Shown: one piece after another, positions 84 through 6,542 of the stretch
How positions within the stretch are numbered: the first letter of the stretch is position 1
How the letters are laid out: every line of letters starts with the position of its first letter
Source: Desulfobacterales bacterium
GTDB lineage: Bacteria > Desulfobacterota > Desulfobacteria > Desulfobacterales > JAFDCJ01
DNA: 6,809 nucleotides
NCBI GenBank assembly: GCA_020345785.1
Contig: CP070771.1
Location: forward strand, 6,406,488 to 6,413,296
Direction of reading: 5' to 3'
Position numbers and translations under genes: made by a program
Notes under the pieces: generated by a model
Databases searched by the model: none
What the model was told of the DNA's origin: nothing
The model's input: the letters and a program-made list of their open reading frames with translations, nothing else

Positions 84-2507
84 ATGGTCGGCTTCATGCA
101 GCCTCATGACGAAGGAAAGCGCTCGGAAGATATCCCGCAGGACCTTCCGATTCTGCCATTGCGCAACACCGTGGCTTTTCCTTTCATGATATTGCCTCTG
201 GCGATCGGTGTTCCACGTTCGATAAAATTAATTGAAGACGCACTACACGGCAACCGGCTGATCGGCCTCATCACCAGTCGGGATCCAATGCTTGACGAAC
301 CGGTTCCCGGACAGGTTTATGAAGTAGGGACCGTGGCCAGGGTTCTCCGGGTCCTGCGCAGTTCCGACAAGGATCTGCATGTGGTGGTGGAAAATCTGGA
401 GCGCTTTAAGGTCAAACATTGGCTGACCAACGAACCTTACCTTCAGGCCCACATAGAACTTGCACCGGACGCAATCGAGCCCGGACTTGAGTTGGATGCC
501 CTCATAAGAAGTTTGCGCGATCTGGCCAAACAGGTTATCGCGCTCATACCGAATATACCCGACGAGCTGGCTAATTTTTTGGACCAGGTGCATGACCCGC
601 GCTACCTTTTTTACATGGTGATATCCAACTCCCGCATGGATATTGCGGAATGTCAGCGTATCTTGGAAATCGATGTATTCAGCGATAAAGTCAGCGCCGT
701 CATCGCATATCTGACGCGCGAGAAGGAAATTTTAACCCTCGGGGAAAAAATACAATCCGAAGCGCGGGAAAAAATGGATAAAGCCCAGCGCGAATACTAT
801 CTGCGCCAGCAGCTGAAAGCCATTCGGGAGGAGTTGGGAGAATCCGAGGACGCCGAAGGAGAAGCCGCCGATTATGCCGCCAAACTCGAAAAAGCCGATA
901 TGCCCGCGGAAGCCAAAAGGGAGGCCCAGCGGGAATTAAAACGGTTCAAGGGTATGTCGCCCCAGGCGGCCGAGTACGCCTTAATCAAAACGTATCTCGA
1001 CTGGCTGCTGGAGCTGCCCTGGAATGTGCTGAGCGAAGACCGGCTGGACATCAACCATGCACGGACGGTCCTGGATGAAGATCACTATGATTTGCAGGAA
1101 GTCAAAGATCGCATCATCGAATTTCTTGCCGTGCGCAGGCTCGTGCGCGAGCGGGGTTTGGAAACCAAAGCGGGCCAAGAGGAAAAAGCCGCCGAGGCAA
1201 CGGGCGCAATTCTATGTTTCGTGGGACCGCCTGGGGTCGGCAAAACCAGCCTCGGGCAAAGCATCGCCCGCGCCCTGGGGCGCAAGTTTACCCGCATGAG
1301 CCTGGGCGGCCTGCGGGATGAAGCCGAAATCCGCGGCCATCGCCGCACCTATATCGGTGCCCTCCCGGGACGCATTATCCAGGCCGTCAAGCGCGCCGGC
1401 ACGCGCAACCCGGTATTTATGCTGGACGAGGTGGACAAAATCGGCACCGATTGGCGCGGCGACCCCAGCAGTGCGCTGCTGGAAGTGCTCGATCCCGCCC
1501 AAAACCATGCCTTCCGCGATCACTACCTGGACGTTAACTTTGACTTAAGCGACGTCATGTTTATCACCACCGCCAACCAGCTGGAAACCGTTCCGCCGCC
1601 GCTGCGCGACCGCATGGAGGTCATATCGCTTGACGGTTACACGGAATACGAGAAGATTCATATCGCCCGATATTTTCTCATCCCCCGCCAGCTGAGGGCC
1701 AACGGCCTGCGCAAGGAAGAGATGACGATCGTCGATGAAGCCCTGTGCAAGATTATCCAGGACTACACGCGCGAAGCGGGCGTGCGCACTTTGGAGCGCC
1801 AGATCGGGTCGATTTGCCGCAAGGTCGTGGTGAAGATTGCCGGCGACGAAATCACGCATCTGAAAATCACGCCGCAAATCGTGCGTGAATTTCTCAAAAA
1901 GGAAAAATTCGAGGCCGAAACCTTGGAAACTTTAGAGATTCCAGGTATTGCCACCGGTCTGGCGGTAACGGCGACCGGCGGCGACATCCTGTTTATCGAA
2001 GCCACTCGCCTGACAGGCAAGGGCAATTTGACCCTGACCGGACACTTAGGAGACGTTATGCGCGAAAGCGCCCAAATCGCCCATAGCTACGTTTGGTCCA
2101 AGGCAGAGCAGCTTGGTATCCCCGCCGCTGATTTTGAAAAGGCCGACGTGCACTTGCATGTACCGGCCGGCGCCGTTCCCAAAGACGGCCCGTCTGCCGG
2201 TGTGGCCATGGTGACTGCCATCGCCAGTTTGTTCTGCCGCAAACCCGTGCGGGGAAACGTCGGTATGACTGGTGAGGTAACGCTGCGAGGCCGAGTGCTG
2301 CCGGTCGGGGGAATTAAGATGAAAATACTGGCCGCCCACCGCGCCGGACTGACCACCGTCATTTTGCCGAAAAGAAATGCCCACGAATTGGATGAACTGC
2401 CGGAAGACGTGCGGCAGTCGCTGACATTTGTAACCGTGGAGCAAATTCAAGAAGCCCTCGAAACGGCCTTGGGGCTGAAAATACCGATCCGACGCAGTGA
2501 GAATTGA
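84..2507 (+). CDS. lon: ATP-dependent protease Lon (LonA type)
   Basis: Cytosolic AAA+ serine protease that unfolds and degrades damaged proteins and selected regulators, acting as a homohexamer. The 807 residues are the usual LonA length. The N-terminal substrate-binding domain begins at LPILPLRNTVAFP (about residue 21) and runs to about 215. A charged helical linker follows (about 225-270, with EYYLRQQLKAIREELGE). The ATPase has Walker A GPPGVGKTS (381-389), Walker B FMLDEVD (445-451) and an LRDRM segment (507-511) typical of the arginine-finger region. The C-terminal protease domain has KDGPSAG with catalytic Ser704, and Lys747 exactly 43 residues later, the same spacing as the E. coli Ser679/Lys722 dyad. 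One oddity: the usual GG(I/L)KEK reads GGIKMK, with Met746 in place of Glu. The gene is complete, with no frameshift. No heat-shock promoter could be supported in the 83 bases upstream. The family call is near certain. Confidence 0.97.
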   Translation: MVGFMQPHDEGKRSEDIPQDLPILPLRNTVAFPFMILPLAIGVPRSIKLIEDALHGNRLIGLITSRDPMLDEPVPGQVYEVGTVARVLRVLRSSDKDLHVVVENLERFKVKHWLTNEPYLQAHIELAPDAIEPGLELDALIRSLRDLAKQVIALIPNIPDELANFLDQVHDPRYLFYMVISNSRMDIAECQRILEIDVFSDKVSAVIAYLTREKEILTLGEKIQSEAREKMDKAQREYYLRQQLKAIREELGESEDAEGEAADYAAKLEKADMPAEAKREAQRELKRFKGMSPQAAEYALIKTYLDWLLELPWNVLSEDRLDINHARTVLDEDHYDLQEVKDRIIEFLAVRRLVRERGLETKAGQEEKAAEATGAILCFVGPPGVGKTSLGQSIARALGRKFTRMSLGGLRDEAEIRGHRRTYIGALPGRIIQAVKRAGTRNPVFMLDEVDKIGTDWRGDPSSALLEVLDPAQNHAFRDHYLDVNFDLSDVMFITTANQLETVPPPLRDRMEVISLDGYTEYEKIHIARYFLIPRQLRANGLRKEEMTIVDEALCKIIQDYTREAGVRTLERQIGSICRKVVVKIAGDEITHLKITPQIVREFLKKEKFEAETLETLEIPGIATGLAVTATGGDILFIEATRLTGKGNLTLTGHLGDVMRESAQIAHSYVWSKAEQLGIPAADFEKADVHLHVPAGAVPKDGPSAGVAMVTAIASLFCRKPVRGNVGMTGEVTLRGRVLPVGGIKMKILAAHRAGLTTVILPKRNAHELDELPEDVRQSLTFVTVEQIQEALETALGLKIPIRRSEN

Positions 2508-2849
2508 TCCTGCCTGAATTTCATGCCTAAAATTCCAACTTTATCAACGTTTTTTTATTGACCGTTCCAATGCTGCCGGGTTAGAGAGTACTCGCAAATT
2601 TTAAGATCAACCGAACAGAGAAAAGCATCCGAGCCCAGAGGACCCGGCTTTGATCTCAACCCCTAAGGGGGGAGCTTGCCGCTGTCTCGAATGCCATGAT
2701 GGAATGTCGAAGATCCGCCTTTGGAGGGGAGGAAAAATCAGCCTCCATTCATATGCCAGCGGCAGGGTGTAAGTATGGACAACCAAAAAATACTCTCGCT
2801 TTAACGGTAAATACTTTTTAATTCTCATCCCGCTAGAGCAGGAAGGCTT
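2508..2849. other. Gene-free gap between lon and the ABC ATPase gene
   Basis: This 342-base stretch has no frame that resembles a protein. A 73-codon minus-strand open frame (2607-2828) lacks a ribosome binding site and family resemblance. No GC-rich stem followed by a T-run is visible after lon; the T7 run near 2550 has no stem before it. No convincing -35/-10 pair was found. The last 110 bases hold inverted repeats involving the next gene's start (separate entry). The middle part (about 2610-2770) is more GC-rich than the ends and could be a dispersed intergenic repeat, which cannot be judged without the rest of the genome. Confidence 0.6.
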
Positions 2850-2859
2850 ATGAATGGAG
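2743..2859 (+). repeat. Inverted repeat pairing with the start codon of the ABC ATPase gene
   Basis: CTCCATTCATATGCC (2743-2757) is the reverse complement of 2845-2859, which spans the ATG at 2850, with 14 of 15 positions matching; the only mismatch is T2754 opposite T2848. In RNA the arms would close an 87-base loop. AGCGG (2758-2762) can also pair with CCGCT (2830-2834), leaving AGAGCAGGAA (2835-2844), which holds the ribosome binding site, as a bulge. A competing pairing is visible: TGCCGCTG (2677-2684) with CAGCGGCA (2757-2764), and GGAGG (2728-2732) with CCTCC (2742-2746). That layout would suit translational control, but function is inference. Confidence 0.45.
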
Positions 2860-4091
2860 TCAAATCATATTCCAGGCCCATGAAACGACCTGTCATCCGT
2901 TTTTATAATGTCTTCAAAAAATTCGGCACCAACCAGGTGCTTGCCGGCGTCAGTCTGCGAGTTTATCAGGGGGAGGTAACAACCATCATCGGCAAAAGCG
3001 GCGTCGGCAAAAGTGTACTGCTCAAGCACATCATCGGCCTGTTGCAGCCTGATTCGGGTGAAATCCTCCTTTACGGGCAGCCCATGTCCAAGATGAAGAC
3101 CTCGCAGATCAACAAGCTGCGGGCCAAGTTCAGCTACGTATTTCAGGATGCGGCGCTGTTTGACTCCCTGACGGTCTATGACAATATCGCCCTACCCCTG
3201 CAGGAAGGAACATCGCTGCCGAAATCTGAGATCAGGACGCGGGTTCAAGACAAGATGCAGCAATTCGAGCTGCAGGCCTTTCGTGACAAATATCCCGCCC
3301 AGATATCCGGCGGCATGAAACGGCGGGTGGCGCTGGCAAGGGCCCTGGTTACGGATCCTGAGGTCGTCCTGCTGGATGAACCGACCGCCGGCCTTGATCC
3401 TGTCCGTCGCAACGCGGTGTATGCCATGATTGTGGACTTTCAGAAAAAATTCGGTTTTACCGCGGTCATGATCAGCCATGAAGTCCCGGATATCTTTTAT
3501 TTCTCCCAGCGGATCGTCATGTTGGATGAGGGCAAAATCCGTTTTGAAGGCACTCCCGAGGAGGTTCAACGATGCTCCGATTCGACGGTGCAGCTGTTCA
3601 TCCAGGGCTTGGAAAAGCCGCGCGATGCTCTGACCGGCATGGCCACACCGGTGCAGGGGGAGCGAAAATTCCATGAAGAGTTGGCGCGCCTGCAGCGCCA
3701 CCAGATTGCCTTCTCCGTGGTAATGCTCACCGTCGAAAACCTGGATGAAATTTACGAAAAAATGGGGCATGTGGCGGGCCAGACCATTCTCAAAAACTTT
3801 GCCGCTCAAATAAAGCAGCGTCTCGATCTCACCGATTCCTGCTCCCGCTACAGCATGGACAGGATACTCGTCGTGCTGCACAACGCCGACATCGATGACG
3901 CCCGCAAGTTTGCCACTCGACTGGCCCGGGATCTGAAGATCGAGGATCTGATAAACAGAGACGAAGATGCGGATCTGTCGGTTCGCATCAGCGCTGGCTA
4001 CGCCCAGGCCGAAGAAGAAAGCCTGATCAAAGAAGTGCTGGCAAATGCGGAGTCAAAAGACAGCCTGTATTACGAATTTGAGTTAAAGTAA
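2850..4091 (+). CDS. MlaF-type ABC transporter ATPase fused to a degenerate GGDEF domain
   Basis: Residues 15-256 form an ABC ATPase of the MlaF/Ttg2A type, which powers phospholipid movement between the membranes together with an MlaE-like permease and an MCE protein. Visible are Walker A GKSGVGKS (48-55), Q-loop Gln99 in YVFQDAALFDSLTVYDNI, signature SGGMKRRVALARA (153-165), Walker B VVLLDEP (172-178), D-loop AGLD (180-183) and H-loop His210; all catalytic positions are kept. MlaF proteins normally end near residue 270. Here a second domain (about 259-413) follows the GGDEF pattern: DALTGM, FSVVMLTVENLDEIYEKMGHVAGQ, and RYSMDRILVVLHNADIDDA where RYGGDEFAVLLP is expected. GGDEF is replaced by SMDRI (335-339), so cyclase activity is unlikely. 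The start at 2850 has AGGA at 2840-2843 with 6-base spacing; the next in-frame ATG (2880) has only a weak site. No transporter partner gene is nearby. The ATPase call is firm and the exact subfamily less so. Confidence 0.9.
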   Translation: MNGVKSYSRPMKRPVIRFYNVFKKFGTNQVLAGVSLRVYQGEVTTIIGKSGVGKSVLLKHIIGLLQPDSGEILLYGQPMSKMKTSQINKLRAKFSYVFQDAALFDSLTVYDNIALPLQEGTSLPKSEIRTRVQDKMQQFELQAFRDKYPAQISGGMKRRVALARALVTDPEVVLLDEPTAGLDPVRRNAVYAMIVDFQKKFGFTAVMISHEVPDIFYFSQRIVMLDEGKIRFEGTPEEVQRCSDSTVQLFIQGLEKPRDALTGMATPVQGERKFHEELARLQRHQIAFSVVMLTVENLDEIYEKMGHVAGQTILKNFAAQIKQRLDLTDSCSRYSMDRILVVLHNADIDDARKFATRLARDLKIEDLINRDEDADLSVRISAGYAQAEEESLIKEVLANAESKDSLYYEFELK

Positions 4092-4388: not shown

Positions 4389-4405
4389 TTGGCACGCTTG
4401 TTGCG
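4389..4405 (+). promoter_or_regulatory. Sigma-54 (RpoN) -24/-12 promoter
   Basis: TTGGCACGCTTGTTGCG matches the sigma-54 consensus YTGGCACG-N4-TTGCW closely: GG at 4391-4392, GC at 4403-4404, and exact spacing between them. Transcription should start near 4416, leaving a leader of about 65 bases before the ATG at 4481. Sigma-54 promoters need an ATP-dependent enhancer-binding activator, so the transporter gene is probably switched on by a specific signal. Confidence 0.85.
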
Positions 4406-4480: not shown

Positions 4481-6067
4481 ATGATTCTCAAATCGAAGCA
4501 GGTGCAGTTGGTCATCGCTTTACTCCTGGGGGTCGCGGTCATGCTGTTGCCCCGGCCCGAGGGGAGGATATTTAAAATCACGGGGCCCGGCAGCCAAACG
4601 TTGATACGGCAGCTCGGCGCCCACTTCAAACCGCTTCCGCCCAAACCGGGCCTAGCCGCGAATGTCGCTTTCGAGGTTGAGGCCCAAAATCCGGGCCGCC
4701 CGGAAGCCACGGCTGATTTTATCCAGCAAGCGGCCGCCAGGCTCAAACTTGAGGATGTCCAGGTGCATTATGTCGACGGCCTCTCACCCAAAGCCAAGCG
4801 CCTGCTGGCCATCATGGTGGTATTGATTTTTTTATTTATTTTCGAGCCGATCCCGCTGGAGGCCACCGCGCTTTGCATCGGCATCCTACTGGTGGTCACC
4901 GGGGTGGGCGATTTTAAATCCGTCTGGGCCGCCTACATGCATCCGGTTGTGGTTTTCATCATGTCGTGTCTGATCTTTGCCGTCTCTCTGGACAAGGCCG
5001 GCCTGACCACGCGCATGGGATATTTTATCATCAGAAAATCAGGCAGCAGCATCACGCGTTTTACCTTCATTCTGACAATCGGCCTCGGAACCGCTTCGAT
5101 GTTCATGCACGATGCGGCCGCCTGTGCCATCGGCATTGTCACCATGCTGCCGATGATGCGGGCGGCCGGTATCGAACCGCACACCCGGACGGCCCGCTTT
5201 ATGATGCTGTCCCTGCCTTTTGCCGCATCCTGCGGCGGGATGGGCAGTCTGATCGGCGGGGGGCGTTGTATGGTGGCCGCAGCGTTCCTCAAGGAATTTA
5301 CCGGGCTGGAAATCTCGTTTTTCGATTGGATGAAATACGCCATGCCGGCGGCCTTGTTGTGCGTTCCCTTGGCGGTCGGTGTGGTTTATCTGGTCTACCG
5401 CCCGGACCCGAATATAAAGCTTCCCCGATTCGGAAAAAGCCTCGGCCCGTGGAGTGCCATGGAGAAAAAAACCCTGGCCATTACCCTTCTGACCTTTTTT
5501 CTGTGGCTCACAAAAGGGTTTCATGGAATTGATTATTCCGTGACCGGCATGTTCGGGGTGGTCCTGCTGATCATCTCTGGGGTTTTGAAGTGGACCGACA
5601 TCCACGAAAACATGGAGTGGGGAACCGCCCTTTTTATCTTCGGCGGCGGCATCTCGCTGGGATTGGCCATGGACTATTCGGGTGCGGCGGCCTTCTTTGC
5701 CAACCTGTTTTTCCCTCTGATTCGAGGCAGCGGATGGCTGTTGCTTTATTTAGGAGTGGGCGTATTCGGTGCCCTGGTCACCAATGTCATGGCCAATGTG
5801 GCGGCCGCGGCGCTGATTCTGCCGATTGTCATTCCCATGGCCCAGATGGAAGGGGTGAATCCCACCATTCTGGCGCTGTGCCTGGGACAGGCCACATCCT
5901 TTGCAATGCTGCTGGTCATCGGCTGCCCGCCGAACGCCATTTCCTACAGCTACCATTATTTCAAGGCGTCTGACCTGACAAGAGCCGGCGCGGTGGCGAC
6001 GCCGGTGTTGCTGGCCGCGCTGGTCATGGTGGCCGCCGTGTGGTGGAAAATTCTGGGACTGGTTTAA
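4481..6067 (+). CDS. SLC13/DASS-family transporter with an inserted domain after the first helix
   Basis: Inner-membrane secondary transporter of the divalent anion:sodium symporter (DASS/SLC13) family, whose members carry dicarboxylates, citrate, sulfate or similar anions. Family features: LLPRPEG after the first helix (10-23), FEPIPLEATAL (121-131), FAASCGGMGSLIGGG (247-261), an EWGTALFIFGGGISLG block (379-394) and GCPPNAISYSYHYF (481-494), among many hydrophobic helices. Residues 29-100 look like a soluble insert: known members run from LLPxPEG almost directly into LSPxAxRLLAI, which resumes here at 101. The two cation-binding SNT motifs are changed: FMHDAAACA (208-216) and TNVMANVAAAA (434-444). 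The first TPPN-like loop reads GGGRC, while the second keeps PPNAI. Ion coupling and substrate may therefore be unusual and cannot be assigned. The start has AGGA at 4471-4474, six bases before the ATG. Expression probably depends on the sigma-54 promoter upstream. Confidence 0.88.
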   Translation: MILKSKQVQLVIALLLGVAVMLLPRPEGRIFKITGPGSQTLIRQLGAHFKPLPPKPGLAANVAFEVEAQNPGRPEATADFIQQAAARLKLEDVQVHYVDGLSPKAKRLLAIMVVLIFLFIFEPIPLEATALCIGILLVVTGVGDFKSVWAAYMHPVVVFIMSCLIFAVSLDKAGLTTRMGYFIIRKSGSSITRFTFILTIGLGTASMFMHDAAACAIGIVTMLPMMRAAGIEPHTRTARFMMLSLPFAASCGGMGSLIGGGRCMVAAAFLKEFTGLEISFFDWMKYAMPAALLCVPLAVGVVYLVYRPDPNIKLPRFGKSLGPWSAMEKKTLAITLLTFFLWLTKGFHGIDYSVTGMFGVVLLIISGVLKWTDIHENMEWGTALFIFGGGISLGLAMDYSGAAAFFANLFFPLIRGSGWLLLYLGVGVFGALVTNVMANVAAAALILPIVIPMAQMEGVNPTILALCLGQATSFAMLLVIGCPPNAISYSYHYFKASDLTRAGAVATPVLLAALVMVAAVWWKILGLV

Positions 6068-6104
6068 TGCGGGATATCCGGTAAACGCCGCCACCATGAA
6101 AAAT

Positions 6105-6542
6105 CTATCGTTTAATCACGAAAACCGGTTTTTTACACTTGCGGATAACCTTCTCCGAGACCGAACCGAGAAATATTTCCTGCAGGTTGCTCCAGCCGTG
6201 CGACCCGATGACGATGGCCGAAACGTTCTCTTCCGCTTCAACCTTCAAAATCTCTTTCACGGGTATGCCGATTTCAACTCGAGACCGGGCTTTCAGACCG
6301 GCCGCTGTTAATTCTTTTACCAAATCATTTAGCCTTTTTTCCGTTTCTTCTAGTTTCTTTTTTTCCAGCATTTCAGATTCATGTTCGCCCAGAAGCCGGT
6401 GAACCTGGTCGAAGCCGCGTACATCAACGACATGCAGAACGACCACTTCGCCGGTTCCGCTGTCTTTGAGTTGTTTGATGTACTTAAGCGCCTTGATCGC
6501 CACATCCGAAAAATCTGTGGGGTATAAAATCTTTTCAAACAT
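6105..6542 (-). CDS. Universal stress protein, UspA family
   Basis: Small cytosolic nucleotide-binding protein of the UspA superfamily, linked in general to survival under stress; no specific partner can be read from the sequence. The 145 residues are one Usp domain. It begins MFEKILYPTDFSD, the usual first strand with Asp10. The C-terminal ATP-binding motif G-x2-G-x9-G-S is complete (Gly113, Gly116, Gly126, Ser127 in GSHGWSNLQEIFLGS), which places it among ATP-binding rather than non-binding members. A charged helical stretch (53-79, EHESEMLEKKKLEETEKRLND) lies in the middle. A strong ribosome binding site AAGGAGG (6550-6556) lies seven bases before the ATG. The gene converges with the transporter gene, with a 37-base gap between the two stops (TAG here). 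Its leader lies inside or next to the inverted-repeat element described separately. Confidence 0.95.
   Translation of the reverse strand: MFEKILYPTDFSDVAIKALKYIKQLKDSGTGEVVVLHVVDVRGFDQVHRLLGEHESEMLEKKKLEETEKRLNDLVKELTAAGLKARSRVEIGIPVKEILKVEAEENVSAIVIGSHGWSNLQEIFLGSVSEKVIRKCKKPVFVIKR

Follow-up and report, generated by a model that had tools for sequence, protein, structure and literature searches.

An MlaF-type ATPase with a degenerate GGDEF domain in place of the MlaF tail in Desulfobacterales

What does a signalling domain that seems to have lost its catalysis contribute to an ATPase of lipid transport? The question is raised by a 6,809-nucleotide stretch of DNA from a Desulfobacterales bacterium (assembly GCA_020345785.1, contig CP070771.1, positions 6,406,488 to 6,413,296; hereafter, the window), in which an open reading frame (ORF) of 413 amino acids (2850..4091, + strand) encodes an MlaF-type ATP-binding cassette (ABC) ATPase that continues into a degenerate GGDEF domain. 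A first-pass annotation of the window had proposed this order of domains, and profile searches bear it out: the ABC_tran domain occupies residues 32-180 (2943..3389, +; Pfam PF00005, E 2.7e-38) and the GGDEF domain residues 258-401 (3621..4052, +; PF00990). Against the whole ORF, PF00990 scores 61.9 bits (E 8.3e-17; cut-off 23.8 bits) over profile positions 3-148 of 161, in agreement with the end-to-end match across residues 259-413 that had been claimed, and these residues by themselves (window 3624-4088, +) reach 64.0 bits (E 1.8e-17). A chance match is ruled out by the E-value of 8e-17 together with a family of full-length relatives. A sequence search of the Protein Data Bank (PDB) returned 32 chains at E <= 0.01, mostly cyclase or GGDEF proteins by name, and the predicted order of secondary-structure elements over residues 267-412 (H-E-H-H-E-E-H-E-H-E) is one that we take to be consistent with a GGDEF fold. 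The matches listed by a fold-library search were ABC proteins, the ATPase half filling them, and no GGDEF fold match could be quoted among them.

Judged by its motifs, the ATPase half looks active. Walker A (GKSGVGKS, residues 48-55; 2991..3014, +) and Walker B with the catalytic glutamate (VVLLDE, residues 172-177; 3363..3380, +) are intact, Asp176 and Glu177 being invariant in the alignment, and the ABC signature SGGM (residues 153-156; 3306..3317, +), like Walker A, was identified from conserved columns. In the accessible text of Kolich et al. (PMC7367683), the methionine at this site is said to be conserved among Mla- and TGD-like systems, and the window protein has both the ATPase motifs and this Mla-type residue. 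Its score against NF008809, the NCBIfam equivalog model of MlaF, is 185.5 bits (E 1.1e-54), below the cut-off of 441, and the protein is therefore called MlaF-type rather than an MlaF equivalog. Residues 19-247 (of 269) of Escherichia coli MlaF (PDB chain 6xbd_I) align to window residues 26-254. The C-terminal tail of about 25 residues with which MlaF contacts MlaB is without counterpart in the window protein; the GGDEF domain is found there instead, behind a linker (residues 254-262; 3609..3635, +) that lies where the E. coli tail would start and has predicted local distance difference test (pLDDT) values below 50.

Proteins of this architecture (MlaF-GGDEF) are a widespread family of three groups, A, B and C, encoded mostly within mla operons and comprising hundreds of relatives, many of them named Desulfobacterales. 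Searches with the C-terminal region retrieved 274 proteins when the query came from the window, 28 when it came from clade B and 567 when it came from clade C, and among the matches listed (120 of the 274, the 28, and 120 of the 567) nearly all are ABC plus GGDEF proteins or fragments thereof. Many jgi entries bear the name phospholipid/cholesterol/gamma-HCH transport ATP-binding protein, and the NCBI names refer to Desulfobacterales, Desulfobacteraceae and, once, Deltaproteobacteria. On a count of rows whose match extends to query residue 340 or further, 63 of 146 genomes from the order of one relative (genome G001) carry the fusion, as do at least 72 of 241 from its class and, at E <= 1e-86, 49 of 395 from its phylum; its recurrence in the order and the class rules out an assembly or frameshift artefact. 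When 389 genomes were searched at E <= 1e-158, a threshold that misses partial copies such as that of locus L106 (E 3e-137), just two copies of clade A, to which the window protein belongs, were found, both already known. The L106 copy (974-2020) is without some 55 ATPase residues around the Q-loop while its GGDEF domain is present, through either an assembly error or a broken gene.

The family alignment holds 348 rows (A 124, B 86, C 138), including fragments and proteins present as both locus and database entry, and corresponds to 313 distinct GGDEF stretches (A 106, B 85, C 122); loci were assigned to clades by an ATPase tree, and database proteins by the search that retrieved them. In this tree clade C stands apart from A and B (support 0.975), and A falls inside B with weak support, beside L042, L079 and L052 at 0.545, possibly having emerged from B as a grade. 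MlaF proteins without a GGDEF domain nest within both B and C (N_L098 at 0.926; N_L102 beside L075 at 0.995), which points to repeated loss of the domain.

Is the domain still a cyclase? Its residues were compared with diguanylate cyclase chain 3ign_A in an alignment that is gap-free across the motifs, and whose positions presumably mark the metal, guanine-binding and inhibitory-site (I-site) roles in active cyclases. According to this alignment and the row counts, the former substrate and metal motif of the window protein (residues 294-311, TVENLDEIYEKMGHVAGQ; 3729..3782, +) has Thr294 for the first metal aspartate, Tyr302 for the guanine-binding asparagine and Gln311 for the guanine-binding aspartate; the former I-site (residues 326-329; 3825..3836, +) reads DLTD for RxxD, with Asp326 for the arginine and the aspartate retained as Asp329; and the former signature (residues 335-339; 3852..3866, +) is SMDRI where 3ign_A has GGEEF. 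The window protein therefore has neither the GG(D/E)EF and metal aspartate of a diguanylate cyclase nor the RxxD shortly ahead of the signature that identifies an I-site effector, and on these residues its GGDEF domain is catalytically dead. An active cyclase is ruled out for the family as well, the site being lost throughout the relatives, with GG at the signature in none of the 348 rows (P0251 is gapped there). The SMDRI signature, the missing arginine and the three substitutions had all been read correctly in the first-pass annotation, with the qualification that Tyr302 is atypical: in clade A this residue is asparagine in 107/124 rows and tyrosine in 10/124, the window among these, and it is an oddity of few sequences. 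Glutamine at the guanine-binding aspartate position is shared by A (111/124), B (77/86) and C (132/138), which suggests a single origin. In four such genomes, the 25 GGDEF domains drawn from the 25 of 30 loci with a recognised signature pattern, which represent canonical domains only, have aspartate at this position in 24 cases and asparagine in one. A pattern search also noted a VGGDDF string in P0182, which the alignment does not place at the signature column.

The lost catalysis is accompanied by strong conservation in the window's clade. Thr294 is present in 121 of the 124 clade A rows, Asp329, Arg333 and Tyr334 are found in all of them, and the signature follows S[LMI][DE][RK][IV] in 119. 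GGDEF divergence relative to that of the ATPase is lowest in clade A, at 1.08 (a median from 3000 randomly drawn pairs among 103 sequences), and rises to 1.33 in C and 1.75 in B. A clade A domain nearly as conserved as its ATPase points to strong selection, and the domain is probably functional.

The recurrent gene neighbours of MlaF-GGDEF are MlaE, MlaD, MlaC and MlaA by Pfam. For 100 distinct MlaF genes of at least 340 amino acids, chains with gaps of up to 420 bases include MlaE in 86 cases, MlaD in 88, MlaC in 62 and MlaA in 46. In nine cases none of the four is included: those of the four clade A loci and five more of clade C type, of which two have short flanks. No STAS-sized MlaE was seen beside MlaF-GGDEF in the loci of these 100 genes, and a STAS_2 search of the 17 GGDEF-bearing genomes among 24 gave a sole match within 5 kb of MlaF-GGDEF, beside the operon of locus L051 (genome G071). 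Conversely, 20 loci with an MlaE of at least 371 amino acids contained no GGDEF match (the ATPase was recognised in 17, and a STAS profile matched MlaE in eight); in one of them, L009, the STAS domain of the 382-residue MlaE is confirmed by Pfam. A single seed from the loci underlies each of the two profiles used, STAS and RsbW, and counts made with them are lower bounds. The nearest operon-borne relative of clade A seen is in locus L122, where a protein 63% identical to that of the window is encoded after a complete series of mlaE, mlaF (clade C type), mlaD, mlaC and mlaA, its longest ORF beginning 81 bases past mlaA.

How might such a domain act? In E. coli, according to the accessible text of Kolich et al. 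(PMC7367683), the MlaF tail of about 25 residues wraps the neighbouring subunit, contacts the STAS protein MlaB and is required, and artificial dimerisation of tail-truncated MlaF largely restores function. The reading that we prefer, and to which we give an even chance, is that the GGDEF domain is a C-terminal regulatory or dimerisation domain that takes the place of the MlaF tail and sets the rate of transport. It builds on the architecture, the residue losses, the conservation, the operon context of relatives and the absence of an adjoining STAS-sized MlaE, to which it would add dimerisation, regulation, subunit exchange and ligands. The GGDEF domain would replace the tail that reaches MlaB, and two such domains would meet next to the ATPase dimer; the pair could then promote or impede closure of the ATPase dimer and its seating on MlaE, and the rate of phospholipid transport would thereby be set without a linked MlaB. 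A candidate signal for clade B is c-di-GMP (cyclic dimeric guanosine monophosphate) at a retained I-site; clade A, with its I-site rebuilt as DxxD, probably responds to a different ligand or to a protein. A stand-alone clade A copy could provide an additional ATPase under different regulation, able to swap with the operon-encoded one. A fuller version of the idea can be offered only tentatively, in which MlaF-GGDEF would gate phospholipid transport in response to c-di-GMP in clade B and to another nucleotide or an RsbW/STAS switch in A and C, the stand-alone A copies being exchangeable, differently tuned motors. A regulatory role for MlaF-GGDEF is likely. The suggestion of the first-pass annotation that a dead cyclase fold regulates the transporter is still the best guess, and has to be amended for the window copy, which is stand-alone and in which c-di-GMP at the I-site is unlikely.

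Several observations weigh against the preferred reading. No mla genes were found in the flanks examined of the window (2.8 and 2.7 kb), L001, L002 and L106 (short flanks in L001 and L106), so that neither the window nor the three other clade A loci encode their protein with mlaE or mlaD; the paralogue in the window stands alone, and its link to the transporter rests on relatives. Of the 24 genomes searched, 23 have a STAS_2 protein gene at some location, and an unlinked MlaB is therefore possible. MlaF genes without a GGDEF domain occupy the same type of operon, and in seven genomes no STAS_2 was found within 4 kb of them (G088 has one at 4.6 kb); several of them nest in B or C, so that some lineages can dispense with the domain, which is no mere stand-in for MlaB. 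The STAS-MlaE/MlaF systems form a subfamily of their own (34-36% identical, two compared), and, the relationship being so distant, the exclusion between STAS and GGDEF may reflect ancestry. The predicted model of the window protein has a predicted template modelling (pTM) score of 0.58 and an uncertain linker, and says nothing on docking or dimerisation; a poor one for a clade C protein (pLDDT 64.6) was set aside. Finally, a plain substitution of MlaB by the GGDEF domain was rejected, the GGDEF-less MlaF genes being mostly without linked STAS_2 too, and is retained only within the model above.

A different reading, which we consider rather unlikely, is that the dead domain is a nucleotide receptor through which c-di-GMP or another nucleotide switches the transporter on and off. 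RxxD is present at I-site spacing in 64/86 clade B rows, about the rate of active enzymes (20/25 of the canonical domains described above), though the GG of the signature is lost in all rows, and this motif fits c-di-GMP binding in that clade. The glutamine that replaces the guanine-binding aspartate in 320/348 rows, together with Asn302 in 107/124 clade A rows, is compatible with a pocket of altered base preference. However, RxxD is found in 0/124 rows of clade A, which has mostly DxxD, and in 0/138 of clade C, which has neither motif; the window has Tyr302 and, since its I-site arginine is an aspartate, c-di-GMP binding there is unlikely. Even within clade B, the arginine is lost in a related set (L045, L039, L087, L076, L077, L078, L105 and others), and the conservation of position 326 ranks just 35th of 153 columns.

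The domain could instead be a docking site for stress-type partner-switch proteins, that is, an RsbW-like kinase and a STAS antagonist, with no ligand receptor involved. An RsbW-like gene directly follows MlaF-GGDEF in L034 (2779-3207, HATPase_c_2 by Pfam), L051 (7408-7998, by the RsbW profile) and L122 (34-447, HATPase_c_2 by Pfam), where it encodes an ATPase 26 bases further downstream of the close relative of the window protein. In L034 and L051 this gene sits between MlaF-GGDEF and mlaE, and a STAS gene lies beside the L051 operon on the opposite strand (10217-10552, -). Phosphoregulation of MlaB is raised as a possibility in the accessible text of Kolich et al. (PMC7367683). Yet the arrangement is confined to three loci (4 of the 100 genes) and the window flanks of 2.8 and 2.7 kb contain no RsbW-like gene, and we think this reading unlikely.

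It is quite doubtful that the clade A protein has left Mla transport altogether to serve another MlaE-type permease or a role outside transport, although clade A is stand-alone in 4/4 loci, one of its genomes (G002) has no second MlaF-GGDEF at E <= 1e-75, and each of the four MlaE genes of that genome adjoins an ATPase of its own. The ATPase is strongly conserved, the L122 relative has an operon context, and G002 is a draft genome from which genes may be missing. It is very improbable that an old fusion is decaying and has left the domain as a remnant: the faster divergence in clade B (ratio 1.75) and the repeated loss suggested by the nested GGDEF-less members would suit it, but many residues of the clade A domain are invariant or nearly so over 124 rows and it diverges at almost the rate of the ATPase, which already disfavours a remnant there.

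The fusion varies a known transporter ATPase in a new way. It resembles MlaF of the E. coli MlaFEDB complex (6xgy, 6xbd) in its ATPase fold, its motifs with SGGM, and the mlaE-F-D-C-A operons of its relatives; it differs from MlaF in having the GGDEF domain for the tail, in the absence of an MlaB-like gene seen in the operons of relatives, and in its distance from the NF008809 cut-off (185.5 vs 441 bits). Degenerate GGDEF effectors include PopA, PelD and CdgA, as well as LapD and FimX, which also carry EAL domains. As in these, the domain has been kept and catalysis lost, a regulatory role is likely, and clade B has the I-site motif; unlike them, the window protein is without the I-site arginine and its partner domain is an ABC ATPase. 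The ABC ATPases MetN (3tuz, 6cvl), PotA and those of MalK type likewise have an extra domain C-terminal to the ATPase, which in several cases controls it and is not a GGDEF fold. MlaE with an N-terminal STAS domain, as in L009, likewise joins a regulatory domain to an Mla-type system, and does so in the same genomes; there the STAS domain is on the permease, and the 20 such loci have no GGDEF match. No published description of an MlaF-GGDEF fusion was found in the open-licence PMC literature, in line with the impression of the first-pass annotation that the architecture had not been described; in the accessible portions of PMC6637903 and PMC11878068, MlaF and GGDEF proteins are treated as separate. 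The on/off control of Mla is poorly understood even in E. coli, the MlaF tail and MlaB being the proposed handles in the accessible text of PMC7367683, and hundreds of proteins, many under records with the name Desulfobacterales, bear a domain of c-di-GMP signalling in the place of that tail. If the GGDEF domain controls the ATPase, a single polypeptide would tie the lipid asymmetry of the envelope to a second messenger or a stress switch, and a large diderm branch would have second-messenger machinery wired directly into outer-membrane lipid homeostasis. The differing I-site states of A, B and C offer a ready-made series in which ligand binding can be told apart from structural roles.

A few observations concern the loci of relatives. 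The stand-alone copies lie near stress or proteostasis genes (lon and a universal stress protein gene in the window, two usp-like genes in L001, GroEL in L002), and in L067 GroES/GroEL are about 3 kb beyond a clade C copy; a stress-regulon reading of the stand-alone copies is only suggestive. In L013 and L014 of the clade A genome G002, two divergent MlaE genes each follow an ORF that combines GAF and class III nucleotide-cyclase domains, and an ABC-like ORF comes after each (a weak Pfam match in L013), which again puts a cyclase beside an Mla-type permease. A stand-alone clade C MlaF-GGDEF in L068 is placed between an alpha/beta hydrolase gene and a histone-deacetylase-family gene (5327-6229; 8122-8802), and a similar 300-residue gene adjoins the MlaF-GGDEF of L053. 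In L045, L046, L048 and L049 (G001, G056), stretches of 100 N, several of them spaced more or less evenly, break up what are recorded as single large contigs; they look like scaffold gaps, and neighbourhoods there may be misjoined.

Within the window, the fusion gene may start at ATG 2850, ahead of which a possible ribosome-binding site, AGGAAGG, was read from the sequence (2840..2846, +), or at the alternative ATG 2880 (+; residue 11), which is methionine in 97/121 aligned sequences. An Rfam scan of the window gave 0 matches at threshold. The neighbours outside the fusion are a Lon protease (84..2507, +; TIGR00763), a DASS-family sodium-coupled anion symporter (4481..6067, +; TIGR00785, PF00939), whose residues 1-98 (window 4481-4774) lie outside its Pfam/NCBIfam match, and a universal stress protein (6105..6542, -; PF00582). 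The sequence TGGCAC-N5-TTGC, which we take to be a sigma-54-type consensus and which has a chance expectation of 0.54 matches with one mismatch allowed, occurs as an exact match at 4390-4404 (+), 76 bases upstream of the symporter start at 4481.
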